Under the pieces are notes generated by a model. That model was not told the origin of the DNA. It searched no databases and worked only from the letters and a program-made list of their open reading frames with translations. This document shows positions 21,433 through 24,957 of a stretch of 37,224 nucleotides of DNA, one piece after another. The translations under genes and the position numbers were made by a program. Numbering within the stretch: position 1 is the first letter of the stretch; each line of letters begins with the position of its first letter. Source of the DNA: an uncultured Thiotrichaceae bacterium (GTDB taxonomy: Bacteria > Pseudomonadota > Gammaproteobacteria > Thiotrichales > Thiotrichaceae); NCBI GenBank assembly GCA_902727985.1, contig CACVAY010000015.1:9793-47016 (forward strand), read 5' to 3'.

Positions 21433-21460
21433 TTGACAATAAAATGCGCTTTCTTATACT
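21433..21460 (+). promoter_or_regulatory. Sigma70-type promoter for the helical-repeat gene
   Basis: A perfect TTGACA (21433-21438), a 16-base spacer and TATACT (21455-21460) predict a transcript starting near 21467, about 50 bases before the ATG at 21519. Confidence 0.8.
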
Positions 21461-21518: not shown

Positions 21519-23699
21519 ATGGCCACACAAGAACAGCAGGTTAAATTAAGAGAGCTTGAAAAAAAAATCCACCTATACAAAACCCGTATTACTGACGCGC
21601 AACAGAAAAGTCGCCCTGACATTGAAAGAATATGGGTCTCGGAACTAAAAATCGTAGAAAGAAAACGTCAAGTATTAAAAGAAGAAATCTCAAATAATAC
21701 GCGCTCTACAATAGAACCTTCACCCGCTACAGACATACCAAATGCTGAGCGTCAACTTAGACAAATTGATAATCAAATTGCCTATATAAAAAAGAAAATA
21801 ACCATTCACCAAGAACGAGGAGAAATGACAGCTGCTGCCAAACAAACAGCCTTGCTTGAAAACCTGGAACGGCAAAGAAAAACACTCCTACCTACACCTC
21901 CTCCCCCGCTCCCCAGTCATATCTCTTCAACACCAAAAACCATCAAACGACTGAATGCAGAAATCGCGCATGCTAATAAGATGATTTCTGAATATAAGAA
22001 GTTTAACTCACCAAAAGCGAATGAGTGGATCGGCAAGAAATTTCAATTAGAAGCGCAACGGGACAGACTTTTAGCAGAACAACCTACTCCAATACCGCCA
22101 CCTCTTCCCATAACGCGCCCACCCCCGGCAACCATTGTCGATACCGCAATCGACATTAATAAACAAATCCGCATCATTGATTTAGAGCTAACACATGCTG
22201 ACAAAATGATTCGTGAATATCAAAAATTTCACTCCCCTAAAGTGAATCAATGGATACAACGAAAAAATGAACTACTAGCCAGGCGCGCCAGAATTACCGG
22301 CCATGCCACACCCTCCATGACTAATCCTGCGAATGATCTTGATATACAACGCCGACTCCAGGTTATTCTTTTGGAATTGGCACATGCTGATAAAATGATT
22401 CGTGAATACCAAAAGTATAATTCACCCAAAGTTCAAGAATGGATCGATAAACGCAATGACCTCTTAGCAGAACGTGCCTTCTTGCAGGGAAATGAAGTAC
22501 CTTCGACTACACCCAATACTCAACCTCAGCCCATTGACAGGGAAGCTATAAAAGCTCGCATCGTTGAATACAATAGACAAGCGCAAAATGCTGATAAACT
22601 CATGCGCATTGAGCTTCAACGAGGTAACCATCAACAAGCCATTGCGTATAAAGAACAACGTGATTTTTTTAATCTTGAAGTCAAAAAACTGACCGCCAGT
22701 CTCAACAGCACGCACACGATCACACCTGTTACGCCTTCACAACCCGACAATGTCCCAACGCTACCTGTCATTGGAAATCCCTCTGCACAAGAACGTAACA
22801 TCGCTAATCGTTATCTTCACGATAGACACTATTCACATGAACATGTTTATAGAGATCTTATAAACCTTTTGACACAACAAACACAGTATCGTTATTTGGC
22901 ACATGCGAAAGACACACTTTTTGATATCACCCAAGCCAATCAGTTACCACCACGGGGGACAACCATCAATATGGCTTTCGTTCGAGATTGCTTTAAAATT
23001 CGCACCTCAGATATTCAGCTTGAGGGCTATACCATTAATGATACGATTTTTAACACCCCATTCCCGACTGATTTTGACAAAAGCATTGACCGAATTAACA
23101 CGGTGGTCGGGGAAGCCCCTCCTCTGAAGCACTTTTCACTATTAGCACATCGTGATGCCATCCAGCTCATTCCAGTTGATACCAACATTGCTCGACATAA
23201 TAGCCAATATGCAGGGGCAAAACTCAGCAATATCACTATTCGAAACCTTAATATCAATTCAGAAGGGCCACTCCAAGGATTATTTGCAAGTGATGGCTGT
23301 TTCGAGAACATCCATCTCGAAAATATTCATATCCAAACAGCCAGTCAACATCAAATTGCTATTCTCGGCATGCTTTCCGGCACACTATCCTTATCGAGTA
23401 CCCGCGTCCAACCTATCCATGTTAATCTACTCCCGCTTCGTTTAGGCGGTGGACGTAATATTTACATCAACAGTTTTTCTGAGGATTCTTTATACCAATA
23501 TGGTCAAGTCAATTCAGGCAATTCAAATGCCATCATTAACGATAACCGTCTGCAAATGAATAAACGAGGCAAGTATTACCAAGATTTTAGCATGGAAGAT
23601 TTTTTTGCAAGCCTCAGACGCGCAGATCCAAACACCCATATTCTAGACCAAATTGAATTCGCAGCAGAAACTGCTGGTAGATTATTTAAAGAGATATAA
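21519..23699 (+). CDS. Large protein with helical-hairpin repeats and proline-rich linkers, unknown function
   Basis: I do not recognise this 726-residue protein. It has no signal peptide. The first 390 residues hold about six copies of a ~43-residue helical hairpin. Three are clear (144-188, 218-259, 282-322), each with a helix like LELxHADKMIREYQK, a turn NSPK or HSPK, and a second helix like VxEWIDKRNDLLAER. Three are more diverged (10-57, 81-124, 346-391). Pro/Thr-rich linkers (PTPPPPLP, PIPPPLP, PPPAT) separate them. After about 425 comes a different domain, with an Asn/Ile-rich strand-like part (NITIRNLNINS, IHLENIHIQTA) hinting at a beta-solenoid. The next gene starts one base after the stop, so both are probably one operon. 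Confidence 0.75.
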   Translation: MATQEQQVKLRELEKKIHLYKTRITDAQQKSRPDIERIWVSELKIVERKRQVLKEEISNNTRSTIEPSPATDIPNAERQLRQIDNQIAYIKKKITIHQERGEMTAAAKQTALLENLERQRKTLLPTPPPPLPSHISSTPKTIKRLNAEIAHANKMISEYKKFNSPKANEWIGKKFQLEAQRDRLLAEQPTPIPPPLPITRPPPATIVDTAIDINKQIRIIDLELTHADKMIREYQKFHSPKVNQWIQRKNELLARRARITGHATPSMTNPANDLDIQRRLQVILLELAHADKMIREYQKYNSPKVQEWIDKRNDLLAERAFLQGNEVPSTTPNTQPQPIDREAIKARIVEYNRQAQNADKLMRIELQRGNHQQAIAYKEQRDFFNLEVKKLTASLNSTHTITPVTPSQPDNVPTLPVIGNPSAQERNIANRYLHDRHYSHEHVYRDLINLLTQQTQYRYLAHAKDTLFDITQANQLPPRGTTINMAFVRDCFKIRTSDIQLEGYTINDTIFNTPFPTDFDKSIDRINTVVGEAPPLKHFSLLAHRDAIQLIPVDTNIARHNSQYAGAKLSNITIRNLNINSEGPLQGLFASDGCFENIHLENIHIQTASQHQIAILGMLSGTLSLSSTRVQPIHVNLLPLRLGGGRNIYINSFSEDSLYQYGQVNSGNSNAIINDNRLQMNKRGKYYQDFSMEDFFASLRRADPNTHILDQIEFAAETAGRLFKEI
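21948..22484 (+). repeat. Three in-frame tandem repeats inside the helical-repeat gene
   Basis: The segment codes for repeats A, B and C. B and C are strongly alike in DNA as well: both contain AAAATGATTCGTGAATA, followed by a closely similar stretch reading CACCTAAAGT or a near variant, which suggests recent duplication. Repeat A is more diverged. Pro-rich linkers differ between copies. Confidence 0.75.
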
Positions 23700-23700
23700 A

Positions 23701-24819
23701 ATGCTGATGAGAAAACGATTTATACCGTTAGGGCTTGCAATATCTGCCTCACTACCATCACTCGGGTATACTGCGGATAGCAAGTTTTGTGAATACTATG
23801 CCCGTGATCTTATTAGTGTCCCCTATGTTTCATCGAACGCAATGTCGCTATGTCAACCCGATCAGAAACACTGGAGCACTAACAAAAAATCACATATTCA
23901 ATGGTGCCTGACTGCAACAGAAGCTGAAGCCAACAAGAAACGCTACTCACATAACAAACTCGTCAATCTCTGTAACGACACATACAAAATTGTCATGATT
24001 GATCGTCAGCGTACAGCACAACTTGCCTTGTCGCCTGATGAAGAAAAAAAGATGCAGCCACTAGGTCAGCCCCTCAAAGATCAGCTAACGACAGGTAAGA
24101 TTAAGTCTCCATACCAGCAACTTTACCCGCATATTTCTCAAGCCCAAAAAGCAGGGAAGCTCAATAATTGTGATTTAAAAAACCTTCCCATTGATCTGGA
24201 TAACAACCCGACAACACAAGAACAGGTCATCAGTACGGATTTAACATGCTCTGTCACTCCTGAAAAAGAACATATTTGGCTCGTTCAGAGCCTCAATGAT
24301 AAACATCGTATTCTTTTTGAAGGGGAAGATATCACTCTAACCATTCGCTATAGTGAACATAATCGCTATAAAAACCTCGCCGTAGCAACTGAGCTTCCAA
24401 AACAGGAAACCACCAATAAACGTTGCGGCGCAATCAAAGCAGAATGGCGCTATGTAGATGGACGCTATCTCCCTTTTTCTGGAAAAGCAGATACTTACGG
24501 AGAATGCCTCCCTCCCTACAATCTACCCGATACACTACAAGGTGAAAACACCCTCTCCATGAAGAAAAAAGATTGGGTAGAAGGAATGGCCAAGGAAGAA
24601 CAACATCGTAAAACTGAAATTGCCAGCTTCGAAGAGGCGCTAAGCCATTACATCCCTCACTGGATCAGCGAAATGGAAAAGAAGATTCCTGTCTTTGCAA
24701 CTCCTGAGCATTTTCTAACACCCCCAAAGACCGAAGCAAAAAGCTCTCCTGAAGAAAAAGCCCCAGCAGAAGAGCCAAGTTTATTTGATAAAATCAAAGC
24801 TCTCATTGGACTAGAATAA
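23701..24819 (+). CDS. Exported Cys-containing protein of unknown function
   Basis: This protein of about 372 residues has a signal peptide (MLMRKRFIPLGLAISA, then SLPSLGYTA before ADSKFCE), so it is probably periplasmic. The mature part has many spaced cysteines (FCEYYARD, SLCQPD, QWCLTA, LCNDTYK, NNCDLK, LTCSVTP, RCGAIK, GECLPP), which suggest disulfides. An Ala/Glu/Pro-rich segment precedes the C-terminal LFDKIKALIGLE. The start at 23701 is preferred for its position after GAGAT and the signal peptide; an upstream ATG-less extension to 23653 is unlikely because it overlaps the previous gene. It is co-transcribed with the helical-repeat gene. Family unknown. Confidence 0.75.
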   Translation: MLMRKRFIPLGLAISASLPSLGYTADSKFCEYYARDLISVPYVSSNAMSLCQPDQKHWSTNKKSHIQWCLTATEAEANKKRYSHNKLVNLCNDTYKIVMIDRQRTAQLALSPDEEKKMQPLGQPLKDQLTTGKIKSPYQQLYPHISQAQKAGKLNNCDLKNLPIDLDNNPTTQEQVISTDLTCSVTPEKEHIWLVQSLNDKHRILFEGEDITLTIRYSEHNRYKNLAVATELPKQETTNKRCGAIKAEWRYVDGRYLPFSGKADTYGECLPPYNLPDTLQGENTLSMKKKDWVEGMAKEEQHRKTEIASFEEALSHYIPHWISEMEKKIPVFATPEHFLTPPKTEAKSSPEEKAPAEEPSLFDKIKALIGLE

Positions 24820-24821
24820 GC

Positions 24822-24957
24822 TTAAGGAAGCTCTGATTAAGTCTATTTTTTTGGAATCAGGACTTTAGTCCCGCCCTTCGTATTTTATTTTCAATACGTT
24901 AGGCGAGGCTAAAGCCTCGGTTCCAATATTGTTTGGACTTGATCAGAGGTTCCTTAA
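24822..24957. mobile_element. MITE/REP-like palindromic element
   Basis: This noncoding block of about 136 bp is built from inverted repeats. The outer arms (24822-24843 and 24936-24957) match at 20 of 22 positions and begin TTAAGGAA. Inside are TTGGAA/TTCCAA (24851-24856/24921-24926) and three hairpins: GGACT-TT-AGTCC (24860-24871), CGTATT/AATACG (24879-24898), and CGAGGCT-AA-AGCCTCG (24904-24919). It lies between the ends of two convergent genes. The layout is typical of non-autonomous transposon-derived or REP/BIME-like sequences. It may also act as a terminator for both genes. Confidence 0.7.

Follow-up and report, generated by a model that had tools for sequence, protein, structure and literature searches.

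A two-gene system, here called A-B, lies within a 37,224-nucleotide stretch of DNA from an uncultured Thiotrichaceae bacterium (the window), and conservation of the pair extends to other members of the group. Computation established the gene pair, the family of A, its predicted fold, its association with phages, and the conserved linkage of A with B. On this basis we tentatively favor, at slightly less than an even chance, a reading in which A is a bacteriocin-like protein that attacks the cell envelope and B is its periplasmic immunity protein, the two forming an antagonism pair. The preliminary description of this DNA, made from the sequence alone, was partly supported in its interpretation.

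Organization and surroundings of the gene pair

Both genes and the best promoter-like site of the region are on the forward strand.

21433..21460, + strand: promoter-like site TTGACA-16-TATACT (consensus scan, 11/12)
21519..23699, + strand: gene A, 726 aa, without a signal peptide, alpha-hairpin array plus beta-helix domain (open reading frame; AlphaFold2 model, pLDDT 85.5; homologues)
23701..24819, + strand: gene B, 372 aa, exported partner, candidate periplasmic immunity protein (open reading frame; relatives adjoin A, 20/56)

The two reading frames and the one-base gap between them, both reported in the preliminary description, were confirmed with B counted from the ATG at 23701. A longer B reading frame starts from a TTG at 23653; the ATG is preferred because it yields a signal-peptide-like N-terminus, as in the relatives of B. 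The dedicated promoter claimed earlier corresponds to a predicted site that is the strongest of the region and ends 58 bases before the ATG of A; the total of promoter-like sites across the region (8 seen versus 8.6 expected) is not above chance. The flanking genes are ordinary: judged by eye from the translations, we take the upstream neighbor of A to be a SulP-type transporter and those downstream of B to be a SPOR-like protein and glmS, all in the opposite orientation. Base composition is also ordinary (40-42% GC in the region versus 40-49% in the window). We found no earlier description of the A-B pair.

The palindromic, mobile-like element noted beside the pair does exist (24822-24957; ∼136 bases, ∼69% self-complementary), and ∼40 copies of it are spread over the genome, many of them 90-99% identical, forming a MITE- or REP-like interspersed family of this organism. 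With that many copies genome-wide, it is not specific to the operon and has no bearing on the pair. The proposal that the pair is accessory DNA consequently loses the palindrome as a sign, but it gains from three genomes of the same genus in which the pair is set among differing neighbors, with no synteny past the pair itself.

Predicted structure of A

The AlphaFold2 model of A, built on an alignment of 31 sequences (mean pLDDT 85.5), bore out the helical-hairpin repeats seen in the sequence. It contains six coiled-coil alpha-hairpins, with pLDDT mostly >90, joined by low-confidence linkers that are predicted to be disordered and are mostly proline-rich.

21531..21704, + strand: coiled-coil hairpin 1, residues 5-62 (AlphaFold2)
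21741..21887, + strand: coiled-coil hairpin 2, residues 75-123 (AlphaFold2)
21930..22076, + strand: coiled-coil hairpin 3, residues 138-186, duplicate of 4 and 5 (AlphaFold2; repeat alignment z 24)
22128..22298, + strand: coiled-coil hairpin 4, residues 204-260 (AlphaFold2; repeat alignment z 30 with hairpin 5)
22329..22487, + strand: coiled-coil hairpin 5, residues 271-323 (AlphaFold2; repeat alignment)
22539..22706, + strand: coiled-coil hairpin 6, residues 341-396 (AlphaFold2; hairpin profile)
22896..23651, + strand: beta-helix domain, residues 460-711 (domain profile; model; structural matches to polysaccharide lyases; viral relatives)
23148..23174, + strand: motif HRDAIQLIP, residues 544-552, with H, R, D, Q, and P invariant in 31 relatives; candidate active-site or ligand-binding row

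Hairpins 3, 4, and 5 clearly stem from duplication (alignment z 24-30), apparently recent. Hairpins 1 and 2 show a weak mutual likeness (z 4.9), and hairpin 6 is unlike hairpins 1-5 and is similar, by hairpin profile, to hairpins from other genera. Relatives of A contain 1 to 5 recognizable hairpins, so the variation in repeat number that had been expected between strains holds between species.

The rest of A forms a compact domain (∼420 to 720) of beta-helix type, with pLDDT >90 over most of its length, in agreement with the distinct beta-solenoid-like C-terminus proposed earlier. Structural alignment of residues 457-680 by VIA-align matched the K1 capsule lyase 7w1c (Z 11.4, rmsd 3.7 Å, 156 aligned), the alginate lyase 6kfn (Z 11.0), PL3 pectate lyases (10.4), and mannuronan epimerases (10.0). 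As the best chance Z of such an alignment is typically 7 to 8, the match is probably real, and the domain is likely to adopt the predicted right-handed parallel beta-helix fold. Foldseek alone, run with the A model against the PDB, gave no match under E 0.001 (E 0.67 for the first beta-helix enzyme); with the full model its listing was filled by ferritin-like helical matches caused by the hairpins. The domain thus has a fold class in common with beta-helix lyases, epimerases, and phage depolymerases (7w1c, 6kfn, PL3, and AlgE4; Z 10-11.4), but identity is 7-14%, the domain comprises only some 250 residues, it has no Pfam match, and it carries conserved motifs of its own (HRDxxQLIP, LQGIFxSDG, and HxIxixGxLSG). 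Residues H544, R545, D546, Q549, Q586, G587, D592, R641, and D675 are invariant over the 31 sequences, and H611 is nearly so. A fold match by itself is no proof of catalysis.

Sequence searches agreed with the earlier listing of the pair as an unidentified two-gene system: neither A nor B has a usable match in Pfam or NCBIfam, a PHROGs scan of both gave nothing useful, and PDB sequence searches with the two profiles returned chance matches only. Among the anti-phage defense models of PADLOC, A gave only a weak helical match to JetD (7e-4, with no single stretch passing) and B gave none. No Pfam or NCBIfam family representing a pesticin, colicin, or ColM domain was found at E up to 1.

Lineage distribution and phage lysis modules

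Relatives of A are present in 30/57 genomes, all from the same family, and the domain profile was positive in 3 of 369 sampled Gammaproteobacteria genomes, namely the three that belong to that family. A scan of 84,980 species, which works on exact short motifs and may miss remote relatives elsewhere, yielded 54 loci in Thiothrix, Leucothrix, Cocleimonas, Thiolinea, Thiofilum, Thiotrichaceae MAGs, and two MAGs without a genus name; these were retrieved with the domain alignment as query, whereas A alone retrieved nothing. By sequence, the beta-helix domain appears to be lineage-specific, the named loci being Thiotrichales. These filamentous sulfur bacteria, as an order, and the phages that infect them have this domain in common, and it was not seen in the other Gammaproteobacteria sampled, a distribution that predicts a distinctive envelope polymer together with a protein that acts on it. 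For chemical studies of the envelope and sheath in Thiothrix-type (bulking) bacteria, such a domain may be a useful tool.

The genome itself encodes two additional A-type proteins, of 480 and 790 residues. The larger (contig C94; L128 7469-9841) matches the Pfam beta-helix family PF13229 (1.2e-11) and has two beta-helix units; its neighbors, by eye, presumably resemble TamA and TamB. Separately, an A-type protein from a MAG (L080 8927-10813) has a signal-peptide-like start and a Cys-rich N-terminus, in which it differs from the other full-length relatives examined.

The domain also occurs in seven viral contigs and in two Thiothrix eikelboomii prophages (L094 and L095), whose A genes have the same sequence as those of viral contigs L140 and L142; counting near-copies once leaves six distinct viral or prophage contexts. 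L143 encodes the domain as a fusion with a GH24 lysozyme (PF00959, 5.5e-26), L142 as a fusion with GH108 plus PG_binding_3 directly behind a tail hub gene (L144 is the same, cut short), and L138 as one with an endolysin-like C-terminus (phrog_90, 1.2e-6). Elsewhere the A-domain gene adjoins a GH24 gene (L139), a GH19 gene (L140), or an endolysin gene with PG_binding_1 (L141), and in the T. eikelboomii prophages the domain lies beside GH19 and is fused to GH108. The bacterial contig L097 has a GH19-type gene with a peptidoglycan-binding domain followed by an A-type gene. A tblastn search with a prophage copy against INPHARED phages gave no match. Because three unrelated families of lytic enzymes keep it company, a chance association with lysis modules is unlikely, and the A domain is a component of phage lysis modules, a statement that holds for the domain and not for the window gene itself. 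Like the modules of multi-domain phage endolysins, it occurs in Thiotrichales phages joined to or beside GH24, GH108, and GH19 enzymes; unlike them, the host protein joins it to a hairpin array and is paired with B rather than with a lysozyme.

Fused or adjacent to cell-wall lytic enzymes in six viral contexts, the domain most likely acts on an envelope polymer, and the simplest reading is that it breaks, or less likely binds, such a polymer of the host. In endolysins, a lytic domain is often combined with one that binds the wall. The beta-helix could on that model be a non-catalytic cell-wall-binding domain in phages and host alike; A would then be a binding protein whose exported counterpart is B. 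This account also respects the limits of a fold match as a demonstration of catalysis. We consider it improbable, as some phage copies are separate genes beside complete lysozymes (L139, L140, and L141) and almost every structural neighbor of the domain is an enzyme active on polysaccharides. The sharing of the domain with phage lysis modules likewise refines the function suggested in the preliminary description: it points to envelope attack by a Thiotrichales beta-helix protein with B as the protector, more than to adhesion or host interaction.

Gene B and the proposed antagonism

The B protein can be divided as follows.

23701..23775, + strand: signal-peptide-like N-terminus, ∼25 residues (sequence; same pattern in aligned relatives)
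23776..23985, + strand: Cys-containing N-terminal domain, only in part of the B family (alignment; also found without the B core in contig C52 of this genome)
24058..24495, + strand: core domain, residues ∼120-265, common to all B relatives (alignment; model)

B has eight cysteines, and its core was modelled as an eight-strand sheet (pLDDT mostly 70-93). As fold searches gave only weak matches (NTF2-like, CarG, and integrin-like; Z ∼5, best 5.3), we claim no structural family for it. As a separate observation, two adjacent genes of contig C52 (L034) encode exported proteins that have B's Cys domain but carry an FG-GAP-like segment (DFNDDGVDDYLFVE) where the core would be, and a copy of the 136-base repeat lies beside this protein pair (C52:7251-7361).

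As had been anticipated, the pairing is conserved: on host contigs a B relative adjoins 20/56 A genes, in two gene orders, and all B relatives on named A contigs (20/20) fall within -115 to +515 bases of the A gene. B is downstream on the same strand in class I, the window type (12 cases), and upstream and divergent in class II (8 cases), where several B proteins resemble lipoproteins. The linkage is seen in both deep clades of A, and since the two classes are far apart in the A tree, the pairing either survived a switch in gene order or had two origins. No recognizable B was found within 2.5 kb of the other 36/56 A genes (some of these loci are cut by contig ends), throughout Cocleimonas and several Leucothrix clades, or in the viral A-domain contexts. 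Within a genus, B diverges faster than the A domain (43-47% versus 60-67%). Orphan B genes also occur: three lie within 5 kb with no A within 19 kb (L126 7472-12129; genome G007, contig C13), and whole-genome searches found more. Genes that we take, by eye, to be Rpn-type-like (PD-(D/E)XK) recur by orphan B genes (L041, L053, L060, and L061).

The layout, a signal-less A gene beside a B gene with a signal-peptide-like start, is of the bacteriocin type. The pairing, the orphan B genes, and the rapid divergence of B fit an immunity protein, and a required cofactor fits less well because the phage A copies are without B. In the antagonism reading, the beta-helix domain would act on a carbohydrate polymer in the envelope of Thiotrichales, whether peptidoglycan-associated or belonging to the sheath or capsule; the hairpin array would serve as the targeting or binding part, and exported B would block A in the periplasm and so protect the producer. 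The phage contexts, the predicted fold, the invariant residues of the domain, and the class II locus L104 described below also speak for this reading. The activity and toxicity of A, the protection by B, and the delivery are in this sense inferred. Having no export signal and no T6SS to carry it, A might most simply leave the producer through the lysis of some cells and then attack the envelopes of close relatives. Colicins are released through lysis of some producer cells. No lysis gene was found beside A, and the many A genes without B, together with the absence of a T6SS from this genome as a secretion route for A, count against an antagonism pair, as do the Foldseek result for A and the weak fold matches of B.

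The main rival, which we consider somewhat unlikely, holds that A is a self-directed enzyme of envelope or sheath remodelling (filament breakage, gonidia release, or sacrificial-cell lysis), perhaps a domesticated phage lysis module, with B as a periplasmic regulator or restrainer and no antagonism between strains. The family is confined to filamentous, often sheathed bacteria, Thiothrix nivea for instance having a multilayer sheath and gonidia (PMC3368414), and many B-less A genes are easier to accommodate in this way than with an obligate toxin-immunity pair. Such a role is harder to reconcile with an A protein that has no signal peptide, a patchy and non-syntenic presence inside one genus, orphan B clusters, fast B divergence, and several divergent A paralogues per genome.

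Several class II A proteins carry PKD and SpaA-like domains; proteins of this class have another helical N-terminus (THTLYxxY...) ahead of the beta-helix and are often larger. Such domains are typical of extracellular proteins, and with the proline-rich linkers of the repeat array they would suit a surface or matrix protein that uses its hairpins and beta-helix for adhesion or as part of the sheath structure, with B as an exported assembly partner. Adhesion, however, hardly explains why the domain keeps recurring in phage lysis modules, A has no export signal in this clade, and the domain has invariant polar residues, which together make this role quite improbable.

The gene after the class II carrier encodes a lytic-transglycosylase-like protein in L104 (9udh, 1.4e-22), a DUF6402 protein in L108, and an A-type protein in L082. 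Polymorphic toxin loci place a constant carrier beside variable cargo, and the class II loci, few in number, may resemble them. In L104 (261-6345), an A-type carrier with Ig-like repeats is followed by the lytic-transglycosylase-like gene and then by a gene for a lipoprotein; a B-type lipoprotein is encoded divergently. The variable genes behind the class II carriers of L108 (4356-8155), L103 (128-4578), and L082 (5871-10552) share a similar C..DC motif at their start.

Pesticin and pesticin-like muramidase effectors have a cognate immunity protein, and the proposed A-B system resembles them in turning a cell-wall lytic domain on relatives, in periplasmic action, and in a neutralizing protein from the adjacent gene (PMC9927483). 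It differs in that pesticin is a muramidase, whereas the A domain is a polysaccharide-lyase-type beta-helix without a recognized receptor domain. The colicin M family offers a second parallel, a modular envelope-directed protein whose diverse immunity partners are located in the periplasm or face it, conserved Cys residues being present in some (PMC5821083), but A has no ColM domain, its enzyme fold is unrelated, and its release by lysis is only inferred. By sequence A belongs to neither family, and at most it would work like them. If the antagonism reading is true, A-B exemplifies the conversion of phage lysis domains into weapons against kin that come with immunity proteins of their own. A broader claim, which we rate as unlikely, is that of a lineage-private weapon family, comprising an enzyme shared with phages and directed at a polymer of Thiotrichales envelopes only, an immunity family in the periplasm dedicated to it, a second and larger class in which the beta-helix is joined by PKD and SpaA-like domains and by exchangeable cargo genes, and delivery by neither T6SS nor a recognized toxin system.

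A role as a T6SS effector, with B as the periplasmic immunity protein, could be read from a signal-less protein beside an exported immunity candidate and from the T6SS of some carriers, yet it is highly improbable and disfavored for this genome. VipB (PF05943) was not found in the genome (G000, 99% complete), for which reason T6SS delivery of A was dropped, nor in 25/30 carriers. A T6SS is present in 5/30 genomes with A versus 3/27 without A, and neither PAAR, VgrG, nor any further T6SS domain turned up in Pfam and NCBIfam scans of A. Of 35 genomes, 5 have contractile sheath genes, this one included, with no visible link to A; the copy here, a contractile tail sheath gene at C30:12810-13046, could belong to a prophage or tail-like element.
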